A stretch of DNA of 64,000 nucleotides from Longimicrobiales bacterium (GTDB lineage: Bacteria > Gemmatimonadota > Gemmatimonadetes > Longimicrobiales > Gaopeijiaceae): positions 2,512,576-2,576,575 of the forward strand of contig OX639991.1 in assembly GCA_951828585.1 (NCBI GenBank), written 5' to 3'. Positions 18,148 through 29,424 of the stretch are shown one piece after another. Each line of letters opens with the position of its first letter. Positions within the stretch are counted from its first letter, which is position 1. The position numbers were made by a program, and so were the translations under genes. The notes under the pieces were generated by a model. It made no database searches. It was given only the letters and a program-made list of their open reading frames with translations, and was not told where the DNA came from.

Positions 18148-18866
18148 ATGACCATGTCGAATCGCGTCAGATGTTACCCGATATTGACCCTCCCGCCCCC
18201 GCGCTCGCGTTCACCACCTCCTGCCGGCAGGGCCTCGTCCCCGCAAGCGCCGTCATGCACCCGACGGAAGAGAACCTTCCCCCGCCCGGCAGCCCTCTCA
18301 TCCGGGCGGACACCGTGATCGAGGGACTGTCCACCCCGCAGCGCGCCGCCCAATGGTCAGCCGCCCGCCGGGCCCTCCTCGATGCGACACCGGGCACCAG
18401 CGTCGGGACGCTGGAGGATACCGGACCGGATCTGCTGGGCTCGATCGCGGCGGCCGCCAGCGACGCCGATGGCAACGTCTACATCCTGGACGGCATGGCG
18501 GAAGAAGTGCTCGTCTTCGATGCCGCGGGCGACTTCCTCTACCGCGTTGGGGGCAAGGGAGAGGGGCCCGAGGAGTTCCTGAACGTCCGGGATCTCGTGC
18601 GCCTCCCCGACGGGCGCCTTGTAGTGGGGCAGTCGGGCGCCCCGGCCAAGGTGCTGAAGCCCGGCCCGGAGGGGTACGCCTTCGCGGGTCCGCTCGTGCG
18701 GGACCGGGCCACGGAGACCCTGGCCATCATCGACATGTGCGTGCTTCGGGACCGCCGGATTGGGGACTCGACGTATGTGGCGGCGTGGTCGTTTCCCTAT
18801 CCGCGGGTGGAGGTGCGGATGATGCCGCGCGTGGATTCACGGCACGCGGTCACGGAACGGCAGTAG
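18148..18866 (+). pseudogene. Six-bladed beta-propeller, frameshifted and shortened (propeller locus 6)
   Basis: An ATG at 18148 starts a signal-like stretch (MTMSNRVRCYPILTL). The matching hydrophobic/lipobox part (ALAFTTSC) is in another frame, reached through a C-rich run near 18190-18200. The body has GNVYILDGMAEEVLVFDAAG and the loop GGKGEGPEEF. After MCVLRDRRI it passes abruptly to GDSTYVAAWSFPYPRVEVRM, a C-terminal-looking strand. The total is about 235 residues, against about 400 in intact members. The final residues are antisense to the end of the convergent AbiEii remnant. I infer an internal deletion plus a signal-peptide frameshift. Confidence 0.65.
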
Positions 18867-19363
18867 CGATCCGTCCCACATACTCCGCTACCGCATTCCA
18901 TACGTCGTCGAACTCCTCCTCAGCACCGGGAGGGAGCAGGGTGTCCAGATTCCGCGCCCAGTCGGCCTGGAACTCGTCCTTCCGACCGGTCACGCGATGC
19001 AGGTGGATGGCTTCCAGATCGACTCCCCTGGCAGCCAGCTTCCGGGGCAGGCTGGCCTGAACCTTCTGCTCCTCCACATGCTTCAGGAGCGAATAGATAT
19101 CGTAGAGATCTCTCGACACGGCGTAGATCCGTTGGCCGAGGACGGCCCGGACCTTTTCGGACATGACCTCCGCCAAGGCATAGCACCTCAACTGGATCGT
19201 TCCCAGATCATCGGCGTCGGAGAAGGGGTGAAACAGTGGACGCGACACCGGGGCGAATGCCAGCACTTCGTTCCGAGTGATATCGAGGCGAAGTCCGGGC
19301 GCGGTTCCACCCGTGGACACCCGCCATTCGCGCGAGCCGGCGGATCTCCGCGTCCCGAATCAT
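18850..19363 (-). pseudogene. AbiEii/AbiGii-type nucleotidyltransferase toxin remnant
   Basis: The gene starts with MIRDAEIRRLARMAGV, the normal AbiEii opening, at an ATG that overlaps the antitoxin stop (ATGA). Within 20 codons the frame is lost. The toxin C-terminal half then follows: LRLDITRNEVLAFAPVSRPL, HPFSDADD, LRCYALAEVMSEKVRAVLGQ, RDLYDIYSLL. The missing ~130 residues include the nucleotidyltransferase site (GGT...S.D.D), so the remnant cannot be catalytic. It matches the deletion-plus-frameshift pattern seen in the neighbouring genes. Confidence 0.82.
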
Positions 19364-20187
19364 ACCCGCCCCGCGAGCCCTTTTTCCGGGAGATTGACCT
19401 CGATTCGCCAGCGTGTGGCAATCCGATGCGGCTCTCTTGGCATGGACGGGTCGAGCTTGCTGATTCCGGCAGTGCGGAGACCCAGCCATTCATCGAGCAC
19501 CCTCGGCTCCGGAGGATGGGTCAGCCCGAGGGTCTCAACCAGAAAGCCGAAGCGTTTCACGACGGCGCCGGAGCCGAAACGGCGCAGATACATCGTCGTG
19601 CGGTCCCAGTCGAAGTCGCCGTCCCCTGAAAGCAACGCCTTGACGATCTGGTCAAGTCCTCCGCTCAGATCGGGCCTGTCAAGGCAATCCACGATCGTCT
19701 TTTCCCGATCCGTGACCTCGACTCGCGATTCTCCGGCGCGGTATCCGTGGCTACCGAAGAACTTGCGACGCTTCACGCGAACGATCCGGAACTGCATCCC
19801 GAGGACCCGGGGCCTGCGGTTCTCCTTTCGGGCCGTCGTCTGCACGTAGGTGACGCGGGGAACCTGTTCGGTGAGGTTCCAGTAGTTGAGGGCGGACCAG
19901 TAGCTGACCATGCCGGGACTCACCAGATGTCCCGCAATGACGTGGGCGTCCTCGGTCCAGGTGCGATCGGGGCCGGCTTCGAGTGGAACGATGAGGTACT
20001 TTCCCTTCTCAATTCGGTCCAGCCAGCCCTTGGCGACGAGTCGTGCCAGGGTGTCCCTGGTCGACCTGCCCTTCCCGAGCACGTCGTACCCATCCTTCGT
20101 TACGAAGATCTGCTTCCCACTGGCTGCAAGGGTGGTAAGGAACGACGCTTCGGCATCGCTGAGACTGATTATATTATGATACGTCAT
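19360..20187 (-). CDS. AbiEi-family antitoxin (type IV toxin-antitoxin)
   Basis: This 275-residue protein begins with a winged-helix domain: LSDAEASFLTTLAASGKQIF, the AbiEi_4-like LARLVAKGWLDRIEKGKYLI. A C-terminal domain follows, with SYWSALNYWNLTEQVP, VTDREKTIVDCLDRPDLSGG and MYLRRFGSGAVVKRFGFLVE. This is the standard AbiEi layout. In AbiE systems this protein represses its own operon and counteracts the AbiEii nucleotidyltransferase. GGAG precedes the ATG at 20187. Its partner toxin gene directly downstream is gutted, so it is now a solitary antitoxin/repressor. Confidence 0.88.
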   Translation of the reverse strand: MTYHNIISLSDAEASFLTTLAASGKQIFVTKDGYDVLGKGRSTRDTLARLVAKGWLDRIEKGKYLIVPLEAGPDRTWTEDAHVIAGHLVSPGMVSYWSALNYWNLTEQVPRVTYVQTTARKENRRPRVLGMQFRIVRVKRRKFFGSHGYRAGESRVEVTDREKTIVDCLDRPDLSGGLDQIVKALLSGDGDFDWDRTTMYLRRFGSGAVVKRFGFLVETLGLTHPPEPRVLDEWLGLRTAGISKLDPSMPREPHRIATRWRIEVNLPEKGLAGRV

Positions 20188-20205
20188 TACCGTTTCTCCA
20201 TATGT

Positions 20206-20227
20206 ATATACCGTATCGCAATATACC
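20206..20227 (-). promoter_or_regulatory. AT-rich repeats upstream of the AbiEi antitoxin
   Basis: Two direct copies of ATATACC (20206-20212 and 20221-20227) lie 20-40 bp upstream of the antitoxin start, in the most AT-rich stretch of the area. AbiEi proteins are known to autorepress by binding repeats in their promoter. These could be the operator and the -10 region. The assignment is inference. Confidence 0.35.
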
Positions 20228-20335
20228 AATAGGTGGCAGATTCTCCAACCCACTCGCAACTTTTGGTCCGCATCCATCGTCAGGGAAGGACGAACCACAT
20301 GCGTCCCCCGGACAACCAACAGAGAGGAAGAAGAG

Positions 20336-21124
20336 ATGACGAGACAAACGATCTGGACTGTGGTGGCACTACTCGGCGCGGCGATCATTCTGCCCACCGG
20401 ACTCACCGCCCAGGACAACTGCGAGTTGCGTGGAGAGATGGTACTTACCGAGAGGGCGGGTGAGAGCCTGACGTTGGAGGCCGGCGCCGGAAAGCTGATC
20501 ATCACGGGAAGGAGCGGGATCGACTACATCCGCGTAGACGCCACCCTGTGCGCATCCGACCAGGAGCGGCTGGATGCCCTCAACGTGTCGTTGGAAGGCG
20601 GAACGCTCGACACCGACTACCCGCGCAATGGCTCCAGCGGCTGGTTCGGCCGGAACCGGTACGCGCGCATCGATCTGGTCGTGCAGGTGCCCGCCGGCAC
20701 GAACCTCCGTGTGGACGACAGCTCGGGCAGCGTCGAGATCACGGGTGTCGGCGACGTGGAACTGCGCGACGGGTCCGGCAGCATGCAGCTTCGCGGTGTG
20801 GCTTCGGTGGTCGTCGAGGACGGGTCGGGGAGTCTCCGGATCGATGACGTGACGGGCGACGTGACCGTCGAGGACGGGTCTGGATCGCTCAGGATTCGTG
20901 GCGTGGGGGGAGACGTGGTCATCTCGGACGGTTCAGGCAGCATCGAGGTGGGGGCGGTGGGCGGCACCGTTCGGGTCCACGGCGGGGGTGCGGGGAGTGT
21001 CACGGTGCGCGATGTGGGCGGGGATCTCGTGGTGACCGACACGCGCCGGTCGCGGATCCGGTTTTCGGACATCCGCGGGGTGCTGGACCTGCCTCCGGAG
21101 AAGAGGAAGGGGAGGGGGCGGTAG
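20336..21124 (+). CDS. Secreted DUF4097-like beta-helix protein
   Basis: This 262-residue protein has a signal peptide (about residues 1-26, ending GLTAQ). A short domain containing two Cys is followed by a right-handed beta-solenoid of short repeats around D-G-S-G-S: VELRDGSGSMQLRGV, VVEDGSGSLRIDDVTGDV, TVEDGSGSLRIRGVGGDV, VISDGSGSIEVGAVGG. This matches DUF4097-type putative adhesins. AGAGGAAGAAG precedes the ATG. The last ~500 bp are overlapped on the other strand by the run-on of a truncated propeller, which I take as non-functional reading. Confidence 0.85.
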   Translation: MTRQTIWTVVALLGAAIILPTGLTAQDNCELRGEMVLTERAGESLTLEAGAGKLIITGRSGIDYIRVDATLCASDQERLDALNVSLEGGTLDTDYPRNGSSGWFGRNRYARIDLVVQVPAGTNLRVDDSSGSVEITGVGDVELRDGSGSMQLRGVASVVVEDGSGSLRIDDVTGDVTVEDGSGSLRIRGVGGDVVISDGSGSIEVGAVGGTVRVHGGGAGSVTVRDVGGDLVVTDTRRSRIRFSDIRGVLDLPPEKRKGRGR

Positions 21125-22359
21125 CGGTTCCAGGAAGGGCACCCCACCGGGCAGTCCGGTCTCGGCCCGATCTGCCAGATTTCCAGATTCGGCGGCATTT
21201 CCACGCTTCCGTGACCCTCGCCATTGGGCGCAAAGACCAGCCATCTCACCGGCGCACGGACATCAAACCGGTAGAGCTTCGCCCAGAGCCAACCTGTCTC
21301 GTCGACCATGAGCCGTGAAAATACGGGCATGATCCTCGCCTGCAGATTCTGACGGTAAAGCCGTAGGCGATATTCACTGACCCTCTCCCGGGTGGAGTCC
21401 GCCATGTCATAGGGATCGAACTCGAACTCGACCAACTTTTCGAGATCCTTCGGCGAGGGCGCCGACGTCTGCTCTGCCAGACGGATGATCCGGCGGAGGC
21501 GACCGGAGGTGTCATACTGTAGAATCTCCGGCCCCTGATCCTCTCCCAGCGTCAGGTACAAGCCGTCCCTGCCCAACGACGCGTCCGGCCGGATGTCGAA
21601 AGGAACTTCCATCTGCGCCGACCCAATCGGACTATCAGGAACCACGACAGTGAAGGACTGTGACCATTGGAGGCCCTCCTCCTCCCACGTCACTCGCCCG
21701 CTGCCCAGTTCCAACAGCCCGTAGTCGACGAGGGTTGGCGGATGCGTCTGGCCATGCCCGGTAGGTGATGCCCAGATTCCACTTGCGCTTTCGACCCCCA
21801 CGATACCCCCGGCCACCCCCAAGACCCTCGTGATAAGGTTCGGCCACGATACGCGCACACGATGGCCAAACCGACCGCGGTCGTCGAAGGAATTCAGTCT
21901 GCGTGCATCAAAGACGACCAGGGAATCGGTTCCGGGAGAAGGAACCAGGACGCAGCGTCCATTCGGATGAAATTCCCCGGGCCCCTCGCCCTTCCCTCCG
22001 GTGTGTCCCACGAATACTCCATCCGTGCCGAAGAATCGCAACTCGCAACTGGTTTCGTCCAGTACCAGGACCCGCCCATCCGAGAGTTGCCGCGCGCCGT
22101 CGATTCTCGAAAAGAGATACGCATCCTCCCCCGCTACCGCACCTACCTGGTACTCCGGTAGCGTATCCACCACCCACCCAATCGGGGATCTTGCCTGGGC
22201 GCCCAATGTCGTGGCCACCAGCGCCCCGGCGCTATCCTCTTCCAGGAACGGGACCCCACCGGGCAACCCGATCTCGGCCGGCTGCTCACACGCCGCCGTG
22301 GCCACGAGCCAAGTCAGAAGGAAAGGAGGCCGGACCCGGGGGAGCCAACTGCGCCACAT
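20617..22359 (-). pseudogene. Six-bladed beta-propeller lipoprotein, C-terminus lost (propeller locus 7)
   Basis: From the ATG at 22359 comes a lipoprotein signal (LVATAAC) and full propeller features: ARQLSDGRVLVLDETSCELR, HTGGKGEGPGEFHPNG, LKDL-type helices, and the last blade ETGWLWAKLYRFD through SVEMPPNLEIWQIG. At about 21165 the family sequence ends. The frame then runs for some 180 codons antisense through the DUF4097-like gene to 20617. At the breakpoint an ETGLPGGVPFLEP stretch closely matches EIGLPGGVPFLEED in this protein's own N-terminus. This suggests recombination with a lost tandem paralogue. The cysteine-rich peptide gene lies 41 bp upstream on the same strand. Confidence 0.7.
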
Positions 22360-22400: not shown

Positions 22401-22736
22401 CTAAAACGGTGTGTCCGGATTCAGTACGCATCTCACTACGTTGCCATCATCGGGCCCCCCTGGGTTCATTGGGCAGTTATACTCGGTGCACTTCGTCACA
22501 TAGCATTCGAGGCATGCCGTGGGAACTGCTCTGGGCATGTGGCAGCGAAGGCCCGCGATACAGTGAGCGCGACACTCTGACGGGGCATCCAAGGGGCAAT
22601 GCGCGATCGTGCAACCCGGGGGGCTGGCACCACTCGCCGGCGCAGTCGTCATAGCCATCAGCGTGATCGCCAGCACCCCCAGAGAGCGGATCACCAATGG
22701 CGAAAGCCCTCTGCTTCTCTTCTGATTCGGTCTCAT
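22401..22736 (-). CDS. Small secreted cysteine-rich peptide
   Basis: This 111-residue protein has a strong ribosome-binding site (AAAAGGAGATGAC) and a signal peptide (about residues 13-36, ending APASGA). The mature part of about 75 residues has ten Cys: C-x4-C-x7-C-x3-C, further Cys in GLRCHM, AVPTACLECYVTKC and TEYNC, and a last one in NVVRC. Even numbers and tight spacing suggest disulfides or metal binding. I recognise no family. It is followed at 41 bp by a propeller lipoprotein gene on the same strand. A small exported peptide paired with a six-bladed propeller lipoprotein recalls the NVEALA/BF3164-type pairs of Bacteroidota, but there is no sequence similarity that I can see. Confidence 0.72.
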   Translation of the reverse strand: MRPNQKRSRGLSPLVIRSLGVLAITLMAMTTAPASGASPPGCTIAHCPLDAPSECRAHCIAGLRCHMPRAVPTACLECYVTKCTEYNCPMNPGGPDDGNVVRCVLNPDTPF

Positions 22737-22945
22737 CGTGTCATCTCCTTTTCTTGAGGTTCGTGGGACCGATTTGCCCGCGGTTCACCGACCGCGTGGT
22801 ACATGATCGCCATTCGCGTACCGACCGATGAAGGGCGAAATCACCTCAATTTGGATGTGAAATGCCACTACTTCGCGTTGCACGTGTGGAAACTCCCTCA
22901 ACCCGTACATTACCCGCTCGGAGGTGACGGGTGCAACGGAGTCCA

Positions 22946-23602
22946 TCATGCCTCTCCCTCCAGCAGCCCGGCCTTGTCGGCAAAGGCAACGAGCTCAGCC
23001 CGTGTCTTGAGTTCCAGTTTCGCCCGGACGCGACCCCTGGCGTTGTCCACGGACTTGGGGGTCATGAAGACCTGGCGCCCGATCTCCTTCGAGGTGAAGC
23101 CTCGGGCGGTCAGCGCCACAATCCTGCGTTCCTTCTCGTTCAACCTGGCCAACCGCGCTTCCGCCCCGGATCCGTTGGTCACGATTCTCCGCTGGACCAG
23201 CCGCGAGGCCCGTTGCGGGAAACACATGCGACCGGCGGCGACGAGGTCCACCACCATCACCAGATCAGCAGCCCTCCGGTTCTTGCCGATGCATTCCGTG
23301 GCGCCCGCCTCGATGATTCCGTCCAGTGACTCCTGCTGTTCAGGTTCGGTGAGCACGAGCACGTTGGTCCCCGGTCCCAGGGCTCTCAGCTTCCGGATCG
23401 CCCGCAGGGCTCTCCCCCGGTGCCCCCGGAAGCCGATCGCCAGAACATCGGGCTTCGCACGGCTGGAGATCCGCACCGCTTCCTCCGTGCAACCCGTCTC
23501 GCCAACGACCGTCATTCGCCCGGTGGCCTCCAGCGCGAGCCTGAGCCCGTCGCGCACCATGGCGTGCGGGTCGGCGAGTACGACTGTCGTTCCCGTGTCC
23601 AT
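22946..23602 (-). CDS. LuxR-type response regulator with a degenerate receiver
   Basis: This 218-residue protein has an N-terminal receiver domain and a C-terminal GerE/LuxR helix-turn-helix (LNEKERRIVALTARGFTSKE, then TPKSVDNARGRVRAKL). In the receiver, Asp11 of LADPHAMVRDG and a Lys in CIGKN are kept. The phospho-acceptor position in PDVLAIGFRG is Gly57 instead of Asp. Phosphorylation there is therefore not possible, and it probably works without a kinase or through ligand or protein binding. GGAAGGATC precedes the ATG at 23602. No histidine kinase gene is nearby. It is transcribed divergently from the following small secreted-protein gene. Confidence 0.85.
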   Translation of the reverse strand: MDTGTTVVLADPHAMVRDGLRLALEATGRMTVVGETGCTEEAVRISSRAKPDVLAIGFRGHRGRALRAIRKLRALGPGTNVLVLTEPEQQESLDGIIEAGATECIGKNRRAADLVMVVDLVAAGRMCFPQRASRLVQRRIVTNGSGAEARLARLNEKERRIVALTARGFTSKEIGRQVFMTPKSVDNARGRVRAKLELKTRAELVAFADKAGLLEGEA

Positions 23603-26936: not shown

Positions 26937-28163
26937 TCACCATCCCACAAGCTCGTACACCGCCACGCTTTGCACGCCCAGGTCGTCCCTTACCGTGCCC
27001 AGCACCCGTCCTCCGGCCATGTGCAATGGCATGAATCCCTCGGGCGGCTCGAATACGCCGAGCCAGACTCCATCCGGCGCGATCGCCGTGAGCCGCCGCG
27101 GATAGCACGAGGATTGCCAACGGTTCTCCAACCACAACCGGCCTTCGCTGTCGCCCCGGATCCAGCCGAACAGGGGGTAGGTCCGGCTGGGGTCGTAGTC
27201 CCACCTGGCCCAGGTGTCCTCGATCCTTTCCTCGGTTGCGGACGGACCCATGAGGGTGCGGACATGGGTCCGCATGCAGGTGATGAAAGGGTCCCAGTTC
27301 TCCTCGCTCGTCAGGAGCCACTCCGGCTCCCAGCGCATGATCTGCCGCACCGTTCCATCGGTACGTCGCCACACGAGTTGGGGCACGTCGCTGCGCCCGT
27401 ACACGAATTCGCCACCCGCGGCGCCGACCCTGCCCACGTGTTCCATATGCCCGGAGGACTCCTTGCTCGAAGACGCGATCCAGTCGTAGCGGGCGACGGT
27501 TTCCGCGACCTGGGTCGAGAGGTCGTACAGGACCATGTGGCCGGACCGCCACGGCTCGGCGAAAGCGCGATAGTCCGTTGGTGCGTTGGAACTGACGACC
27601 GAAGCCATCAGAATCCGACCGTCGTCGCCGATGGCCTTCGGCACCGCACGAGCAACGGCATCTCCCGGCGGAGGCCGTGCATTTTGCGCCACGGCCCCGC
27701 CCGCGAAGAGGGTCAGGAGCATCGTCCAATCGTCTGCGACCAGCAGCGTGTCCGCGCCGCCGGCGGTGAGGGCAATGCCGCCGAACTGGCTGATCTCGCC
27801 CGGCCCATCGCCCTGGCGCGCCAGCACATTCCGGAAGGCGCCGTCCGGACCGAGGAGGATGATCTCGCGGTTGCCCCAGTCGAATACGGCGGCGCTGCCG
27901 TCGGGGTAAAGGACCGCGCCGCCGATGCTTGCGAACTGGTAGTCGTCGGGGCCGGTGCCGTGGGTGTACAGGGGTTCGTCGGCGAGGGTGAGGGTGGGGA
28001 CGGACGGGGTTCCCGCGTACTCCACGATGCGTATGCCTGCGCTGTCGCGGATCTGTACTTCGGCGCCGACGTGTGATTCAGCCGCCTCGTCGCACCCGGG
28101 GAGCAACAGCGCGCAAAGCGAGGCGAGTCGGATTCCTGTTGGGAGGGCCTGGGCAGCGTTCAA
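26937..28163 (-). CDS. Six-bladed beta-propeller lipoprotein (propeller locus 8)
   Basis: This 408-residue protein starts at a TTG, one base after the upstream propeller's stop codon. It has a lipobox (ALLLPGC) and the family opening VQIRDSAGIRIVEYAGTPSV. Blade motifs are YPDGSAAVFDWGNREIILLG, ARQGDGPGEISQFGG and RRTDGTVRQIMRWEPEW, with the closing DDLGVQSVAVYELVGW. The reading frame is complete. The signal-peptide residues follow directly on the TTG and no ATG is available, which decides the start. It forms a translational tandem with locus 9 and is close to locus 10 in sequence (AEVQIRDSAGIRIVEYAGTP is shared). Confidence 0.85.
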   Translation of the reverse strand: MNAAQALPTGIRLASLCALLLPGCDEAAESHVGAEVQIRDSAGIRIVEYAGTPSVPTLTLADEPLYTHGTGPDDYQFASIGGAVLYPDGSAAVFDWGNREIILLGPDGAFRNVLARQGDGPGEISQFGGIALTAGGADTLLVADDWTMLLTLFAGGAVAQNARPPPGDAVARAVPKAIGDDGRILMASVVSSNAPTDYRAFAEPWRSGHMVLYDLSTQVAETVARYDWIASSSKESSGHMEHVGRVGAAGGEFVYGRSDVPQLVWRRTDGTVRQIMRWEPEWLLTSEENWDPFITCMRTHVRTLMGPSATEERIEDTWARWDYDPSRTYPLFGWIRGDSEGRLWLENRWQSSCYPRRLTAIAPDGVWLGVFEPPEGFMPLHMAGGRVLGTVRDDLGVQSVAVYELVGW

Positions 28164-28164
28164 G

Positions 28165-29382
28165 TCAGTTCGCTTCCACCAGCTCGTACACCGCCACGCT
28201 CTCCACGCCCATCTCGTCCGTCATGATGCCCAACACCCGTCCCCAACCGACATCCAGAATGCGAAGTCCCGGCGGCGCGTCCACCATCCCCAGCCACTCT
28301 CCATCCCGGGAAATCACGGTATAGGGAGAGATGCCCTCGCCCGGGACGCCCGGCATGGAAGTGGGGAGCCAGACCCGGCCTTCCGCATCGGCGAATGGGG
28401 ACTTGAAATGCTCAACGGGATTGCTCAGATCCGCCTCGTACCTGGCCATGCTCCGCCTGGTGTTGCTTTCAACCTCCTCCTCCGAGGCTCCGGGATTCGC
28501 GAAACGGATCCTGTCCCGGAGGATCGGCTCGATCGCCTCCAGGTCTTCCTCGGTCAGGTACCGGGGCTCGAGCTGCCAGCGCGCGATCTGTCTCACCGTG
28601 CCGTCGGCCAGGTGCCAGACGACCTCGGGGATGTCCGTCCGCACGTAGACGAACTGTCCGCCCGAGACGAAGACGCGTCCCGTGCCGGGAACGGGGTTCG
28701 ACTCTCCCGGCACGTACTGGTAGGACGCGACCGTGTCGACCGCCCCGGTCTCCGGATCGTACCGGGCCATGTGCCCGAAGAGCCATTCCTCTTCGAACCC
28801 GGGCAGGAACGAACTGGTGGCGACAAGGAACCTGCCGGCGTCGCCGACTCCCTCCGGCCAGAGCGATGTGGCGCGCCGGAGGTCCAGGATGGATGTCGTG
28901 TGGGCAAGGGAACCGTTCACGAAAAGCGAGGACCGGGTCTGACCGAGATCCAAGACGGCAATGCTGTCCTGGCCCACCCTAAACATCGAAGTCACCAATC
29001 GGCTCACTTCGCCGGGCCCTTCGCCGGCGGGCGCGAGCACCGAGTGGAAGGTGCCGTCGGGGTTGAGGCGCACGACCTCCGAAGTGCCGCCATCGAAGAT
29101 CACCGCGCTCCCGTCGCCGAGCAGGATGCCCCTCCAGATGCGCGCGAACGTGTAGTCATCCGGGTCGTTCCCGTGGCGGTACAGCGGTTCCGGCGCGAAG
29201 GAGAAGGGGGGCTCGGCATCGGGTGCGCCCGTGTGTTGCACGATCCGCACCCCGGCGCTGTCTGTGACGACCGCGTCCGCAATTTGGGTGGTGTCGCCGC
29301 CGCAGGCGAAGAGGGCCAGTGTCGGCACGGCCAGGATGGAGCGGTGGGGACTGTGGTTGGGGGATGCAATGGGGTTGGTCAT
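28165..29382 (-). CDS. Six-bladed beta-propeller lipoprotein (propeller locus 9)
   Basis: This 405-residue protein uses the ATG at 29382 behind AAGGAG; a start 11 codons upstream is less likely. It has a lipobox (TLALFAC), the opening VVTDSAGVRIVQHTGAPDAE, blades GDGSAVIFDGGTSEVVRLNP and APAGEGPGEVSRL, and HLADGTVRQIARWQ. A long helical insert follows (EEDLEAIEPILRDRIRF, then ASEEEVESNTRRSMARYEAD). The closing strand is MGVESVAVYELVEAN. It is complete and is followed by locus 8 with one base between stop and start. IS1380 copy 1 lies 42 bp upstream, so its own promoter may have been displaced. Confidence 0.87.
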   Translation of the reverse strand: MTNPIASPNHSPHRSILAVPTLALFACGGDTTQIADAVVTDSAGVRIVQHTGAPDAEPPFSFAPEPLYRHGNDPDDYTFARIWRGILLGDGSAVIFDGGTSEVVRLNPDGTFHSVLAPAGEGPGEVSRLVTSMFRVGQDSIAVLDLGQTRSSLFVNGSLAHTTSILDLRRATSLWPEGVGDAGRFLVATSSFLPGFEEEWLFGHMARYDPETGAVDTVASYQYVPGESNPVPGTGRVFVSGGQFVYVRTDIPEVVWHLADGTVRQIARWQLEPRYLTEEDLEAIEPILRDRIRFANPGASEEEVESNTRRSMARYEADLSNPVEHFKSPFADAEGRVWLPTSMPGVPGEGISPYTVISRDGEWLGMVDAPPGLRILDVGWGRVLGIMTDEMGVESVAVYELVEAN

Positions 29383-29424
29383 CGGGTGCTCCTTGGCGTG
29401 GTGTGCATAGTACACACTCTTGAT

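Follow-up and report, generated by a model that had tools for sequence, protein, structure and literature searches.

A propeller-paired, hypervariable cysteine-rich peptide of Longimicrobiales and its probable link to a dedicated DsbA-type oxidoreductase

Introduction

In Bacteroidota, NVEALA peptides adjoin BF3164-type six-bladed propeller lipoproteins. Dedicated pairs of a DsbA-type enzyme and its substrate are also established, as with DsbL/DsbI and AssT, and thiol oxidoreductases are encoded in the sublancin operon. Here we describe a gene for a cysteine-rich exported pre-peptide at positions 22401-22736 of a 64-kb stretch of the Longimicrobiales contig OX639991.1 (the window, meaning the whole stretch that was analysed), together with the propeller lipoprotein gene that follows it and a DsbA-type gene that accompanies both in related genomes. 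Our reading of this locus, to which we give a probability of about 0.62, is that the operon would export and oxidatively fold a hypervariable disulfide mini-protein, with the peptide as its substrate.

As in the NVEALA/BF3164 arrangement, a short exported Cys-containing peptide lies beside a propeller lipoprotein of the probable six-bladed type. Unlike NVEALA, the peptide has no profile match in the phylum, is built on a ten-Cys scaffold and is associated with a DsbA partner. As with DsbL/DsbI-AssT and the sublancin operon, a DsbA-type enzyme is encoded beside a secreted disulfide protein that is probably its substrate; in contrast to them, there are many unrelated short peptides, and a propeller serves as a second partner that is sometimes fused to the enzyme. 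A search of the open-access literature, which includes few subscription journals, returned no paper on such a Gemmatimonadota system and none with NVEALA or DUF5128. We found no described counterpart for the combination of DsbA, hypervariable peptides and propeller, which would work like the known dedicated DsbA-substrate pairs.

Results

The peptide gene is read from the minus strand, from an ATG at 22736 to a stop at 22401, and encodes 111 amino acids with ten Cys residues, a number shared by its homologues. Its N-terminus is basic and then hydrophobic (RGLSPLVIRSLGVLAITLMAMT), and an export signal is predicted from this charge and hydrophobicity. The Cys residues (42, 47, 55, 59, 65, 75, 78, 83, 88 and 103) are all found past this export-type N-terminus. 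Residues 1-36 (22629-22736, minus strand) constitute a strongly conserved leader or signal peptide (LSPLVIRSLGVLAITLMAMT), at the end of which near-identity with the closest relative stops. Alignment of the homologues shows that the mature part (22404-22628, minus strand) is hypervariable except for the ten Cys and one Gly. A Shine-Dalgarno sequence, AAGGAG (22745-22750, minus strand), is located about 8 nt 5′ of the ATG, and AAGGAG or GAGGAG is present in several homologues. The first-pass annotation, made from the letters of the stretch, was therefore correct in describing a 111-residue pre-peptide with ten Cys in its mature part and a ribosome-binding site. No other open reading frame (ORF) in the window passed a strict filter for exported products with at least six Cys, and the genome, a single 4.47-Mb contig, holds no paralogue of the peptide. 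A scan for sigma-70 promoters and terminators detected nothing, and the peptide had no convincing match in Pfam, NCBIfam or the PDB. Assignment as a knottin or inhibitor cystine knot was rejected, as the ten-Cys framework has no CC and does not follow the C-C-CC-C-C pattern.

Eight homologues were found in seven other species of the genus. Seven of the peptide genomes are Gemmatimonadota metagenome assemblies with fragmented contigs, and we take the peptide-bearing relatives to be sponge-associated, going by isolate names. All ten Cys are invariant among the nine sequences, as are the leader block and one Gly, while identity of the mature part to the window peptide is as low as 26-49%. The peptide has a patchy distribution (8 of 23 species), with no genuine homologue outside the genus among 395 Gemmatimonadota genomes and no relative on viral contigs. 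Weak matches in G166 and G338 (loci L088 and L089) were discarded because they represent other genes in the wrong frame. For the mature part of the closest species pair (G012/G021), dN was 0.13 and dS 0.47, and the resulting dN/dS of about 0.28 indicates a protein under purifying selection. Taken together, the homologues, the conserved Cys residues and this purifying selection rule out a chance ORF. Positive selection is unproven, since dN/dS is below 1 in this pair and the distant pairs are saturated; exchange or old alleles would account for the divergence instead.

The propeller lipoprotein gene starts 41 bp past the peptide gene on the same strand (ATG at 22359), also as first annotated. 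Its homologous part spans 21167-22359 on the minus strand, with a lipobox-like ATAAC (Cys codon at 22290) and with about 25 C-terminal amino acids absent. Against PF17170 (DUF5128), the window propeller scores 20.9 bits versus a gathering cut-off of 22.9, and its G012 relative scores 26.8 bits. A profile of the propeller clade matches NHL propellers in the PDB (TRIM2/TRIM3) with an E-value of about 3e-16. These profile matches point to DUF5128 and NHL propellers, but the clade is separate and is tied to the peptide. A propeller directly follows 9 of 9 peptides in the eight genomes, and all of them belong to this one clade and are 52-62% identical to the window propeller. The search for short ORFs with the same Cys spacing beside propellers, which the first-pass annotation had proposed, thus returned eight homologues, all paired; it had named a lack of homologues, or homologues away from propellers, as counter-evidence, and all nine peptides precede a propeller. 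In G022, the gene order is peptide-propeller-peptide-propeller-DsbA, suggesting that each peptide retained its own propeller after duplication. G008 has a propeller of the clade that lacks a peptide, as does another locus of G022, and in G003 a frameshift or an assembly error interrupts the propeller.

None of 18 ordinary propellers of the genus has a Cys-rich exported peptide directly upstream (one 6-Cys ORF beside L082 looks like the beginning of another propeller-like protein and was not counted), which argues that the pairing is specific. These same propellers led us to reject the propeller as sole partner, DsbA being the more constant feature. The peptide-propeller partnership suggested earlier therefore holds as a conserved pairing, but the propeller is not the whole story and DsbA recurs most consistently. 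The window genome contains at least 14 propellers of the superfamily, and at 26937-29415 of the window it has two ordinary propeller lipoproteins in tandem, neither accompanied by a Cys-rich peptide.

In general layout, with a short exported Cys peptide next to a propeller lipoprotein of the probable six-bladed type, the pair resembles the Bacteroidota NVEALA/BF3164 pairing and might be a distant member of it. The NVEALA profile PF14055 matched neither the peptide nor its own genome, and none of 279 Gemmatimonadota genomes gave a hit, whereas a Bacteroides ihuae control scored over the cut-off. NVEALA homology of the peptide was rejected on this basis, in line with the first-pass view that the peptide is unrelated to NVEALA, and we regard distant membership of that pairing as extremely unlikely.

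In G003, G007, G012, G013, G021 and G022, the gene 3′ of the propeller encodes a DsbA-type thiol oxidoreductase with a membrane anchor. In G019 the order continues with this gene on the next contig, so DsbA comes after the propeller in seven of the eight genomes, and every relative with enough sequence carries it as the third gene. The DsbA proteins of this clade are 67-94% identical between species, with the motifs DFTCPFC and GTPTLFVNG. They pass the gathering score of the Thioredoxin_4/DsbA families (PF13462, PF01323), with which they share the CPFC active site and cis-Pro loop; what sets this subfamily apart is an N-terminal membrane anchor and its place beside Cys-rich peptides. The DsbA clade was detected in seven of the eight genomes with the peptide, the window genome being the exception, and peptide, propeller and DsbA co-occur across the 395 Gemmatimonadota genomes. 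Among the plasmid matches listed, the best were only generic relatives of DsbA (29-38% identity).

Association of this DsbA subfamily with Cys-rich peptides was evident across the phylum. Candidate peptides were scored with a home-made filter based on a hydrophobic N-terminus, a start codon and Cys density. In a first set, a short exported Cys-rich ORF was adjacent on the same strand at 33 of 41 loci, compared with 7 of 41 on the opposite strand, and the number of mature-part Cys was even in 36 of 38 ORFs (p about 3e-9 under random parity). The same filter was applied to 30 further DsbA genes found with a second model built from the first-set loci. Here a peptide was present on the same strand at 24 loci and on the opposite strand at 6, a propeller was nearby at 21, and the Cys count was even in 23 of 24. 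As the looser filter was fixed after seeing the first set, the 30-locus replication provides the cleaner number. By comparison, another DsbA subfamily of the same phylum showed 0/11 peptides and 0/11 propellers. The CxxC was intact in all 42 DsbA domains examined.

The peptides at these loci are mostly unrelated in sequence, with 8-Cys, 10-Cys and other frameworks, and searches with eight of them against NCBIfam and seven against Pfam gave only chance-level matches and the AtDEF-like match of G007 described below. At L177 (5168-5874, G182:C16), one DsbA gene is preceded by a tandem array of three 6-Cys peptides (CC...CC...C...C) that resemble one another without being identical, which suggests local duplication and divergence. 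The first-pass annotation had also considered a ligand, which is still a conjecture, or a modified peptide; DsbA and the even Cys counts favour disulfide folding over an exotic modification.

An abundance of Cys residues and a thioredoxin-fold partner could also point to a housekeeping function, in which the peptide buffers thiols or chelates metal in the periplasm and is reduced or oxidised by the adjacent enzyme. However, Cys numbers that are nearly always even, extreme divergence between the Cys residues and many unrelated frameworks are at odds with a shared redox or metal function, as is the patchy distribution. We consider this function improbable.

At some loci, the enzyme and the propeller are one protein. 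In G007, a 76-aa knottin-like (C-C-CC-C-C) peptide, with an AtDEF-like match that falls below the Pfam cut-off (E-value 9e-5), is directly upstream of a single protein consisting of a DsbA-type domain and then a propeller. The window genome also possesses such a locus, L206 (C1, about 643.3-646.6 kb), where a 6-Cys knottin-like peptide (MRRIWIMFMAVTISLAAMSAGPTRAVSRPMCLTDGSDCYGIDPQLCCGKRCWMYDPGDHRCTTN...) directly precedes a 620-aa thioredoxin-fold/propeller fusion. L206 is a second module of this kind in the genome and is apparently intact. This second peptide type has the knottin pattern, and the framework of the window peptide differs from it. That these two neighbours of a Cys-rich peptide can be joined in one protein is an independent line of evidence for a single periplasmic process in which enzyme and propeller take part, and it supports both the folding of the peptide by DsbA and its binding by the propeller.

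Comparison with G007 revealed where the variation in the module begins. The two genomes share 88% DNA identity over 3.1 kb spanning the upstream response regulator gene, the intergenic region and the leader, and the match stops at 22629, where leader codon 36 ends. In 100-bp steps, identity is 0.82-0.97 ahead of this position, 0.41-0.44 in the mature part and 0.47-0.82 in the propeller, and the downstream flanks regain 76-90% identity. Synonymous divergence is 0.26 for the regulator and 0.11 for the leader, then about 1.3 for the mature part and 1.0 for the propeller. The mature part and propeller of G007 are 68% and 72% identical to those of G013 versus 33% and 61% to those of the window, whereas the G007 leader is 97% identical to the window leader versus 64% to that of G013. 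The jump in divergence at the leader/mature boundary indicates that the mature peptide and the propeller move or diverge together. The simplest reading is that they have been exchanged as a cassette by recombination.

A cassette of this kind would also suit an antagonistic system. Here the folded peptide would serve as a weapon, either bacteriocin-like or aimed at a host, and the cognate propeller would confer immunity to it or neutralise it. The hypervariability of the mature part around its fixed Cys residues, its divergence together with the propeller between conserved flanks, the presence in only 8 of 23 species, the tandem divergent pairs that share one DsbA in G022 and the knottin-like frameworks at other loci are all consistent with this idea. 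However, no dedicated export system was seen, and the fusion of propeller to DsbA is easier to explain if the propeller assists folding than if it confers immunity. Further, at several loci peptides occur without any propeller, or in twos or threes with a single propeller or none; this suggests that the propeller is an accessory component and argues somewhat against a simple immunity role. Antagonism is therefore a doubtful, if credible, explanation.

In the window itself the module is partly decayed, having lost the DsbA gene and the propeller C-terminus. Homology of the propeller ends near 21167, about 25 amino acids before the end of intact relatives, and beyond this point its frame reads through antisense to a gene at 20336-21124. 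At 21127-21163 (minus strand), another frame encodes what is left of a second propeller N-terminus (AETGLPGGVPFLE), which marks the deletion; in G007, this segment lies behind the DsbA gene. The simplest reading is that one deletion took the propeller end and the whole DsbA gene, with the truncated propeller as its scar. The first-pass annotation had recognized the truncation and looked to other genomes for intact pairs, and relatives indeed carry an intact propeller; DsbA was missed because its gene is deleted here. With DsbA lost, the peptide would either need a different thiol oxidase or be in the course of losing its function. The plus-strand gene at 20336-21124 encodes repeated VEDGSGS-type units behind an export-type N-terminus. 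At 18850-20505 are two minus-strand ORFs that by eye resemble an AbiEi/AbiEii-type toxin-antitoxin pair, part of which is present in G007 as 90% identical DNA.

A LuxR/NarL-type response regulator gene (22946-23602, minus strand) lies 209 bp upstream of the peptide gene, and its product is devoid of the usual phospho-acceptor Asp (VLAIGF). That it controls the module is a guess. A regulator is found at this place in 3 of the 8 genomes (window, G007 and G019); a 67% identical paralogue is encoded at C1:3329355, and 6 of the 8 peptide genomes have close relatives of it. At L163 (5335-7740, G022:C59), the N-terminus of a response regulator is fused in frame to a propeller of the clade, followed by a DsbA of the clade and with no peptide; it seems that the peptide gene was deleted between regulator and propeller.

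The upstream regulator in three genomes, its remnant fused to a peptide-less propeller and the co-diversified peptide-propeller pair could together be read as peptide signalling, with the peptide as pheromone, the propeller as receptor and the LuxR-type regulator as output. The regulator is, however, at this place in only 3 of 8 genomes and without its phospho-acceptor Asp, no kinase or transducer accompanies it, and no recurrent regulator appears among the leading clusters at the phylum-wide loci. We think signalling very improbable.

Discussion

Based on these observations, we favour the reading in which the module exports and folds a disulfide mini-protein. In this sequence-derived scheme, Sec would export the peptide, and the leader would be cleaved near residue 36. 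The dedicated DsbA would then form about five disulfides, as suggested by its adjacency, its active site and the even Cys counts; disulfide formation by this enzyme is the step that we consider quite probable. The propeller would bind the peptide, either to dock or hold it for DsbA or to recognize it as its cognate partner. Peptide-specific binding is suggested by the one-to-one pairing, the co-divergence and the fusion, and we judge the chances for and against it to be even. Lastly, once folded, the peptide would act beyond the cytoplasm in a task for which diversity is an advantage; antagonism, recognition and host interaction are candidates.

Several observations weigh against this reading. 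Disulfides, secretion and binding are each inferred from sequence, and no outer-membrane export route was identified. The AlphaFold model of the peptide is poor (pLDDT 60.6) and has no PDB fold match, and that of the propeller is unusable (pLDDT 37). Many DsbA-peptide loci have no detectable propeller, and the filter admits a few chance or doubtful ORFs (L187, L192 and, in the replication set, L273). Finally, the intact peptide gene is kept in the window genome without its DsbA, so the enzyme may be dispensable.

On a broader scale, we tentatively suggest, at somewhat less than even odds, that these loci represent an undescribed, phylum-wide class of hypervariable disulfide mini-proteins. Such a class would comprise many unrelated Cys frameworks, including knottin-like ones, served by a dedicated DsbA-propeller folding machine and varied by swaps of mature-peptide/propeller cassettes behind a conserved leader, and would be a bacterial counterpart of venom-peptide diversification.

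In conclusion, if this reading is true, a little-studied and mostly uncultured phylum holds a large catalogue of disulfide mini-proteins with 4 to 11 Cys, each beside its probable folding enzyme. These would supply stable peptide scaffolds together with the partners that fold them, and would make bacterial peptide diversification through cassette exchange open to test. Six-bladed propeller lipoproteins are hugely expanded and have no known function, and for one clade of them the reading supplies a concrete hypothesis.
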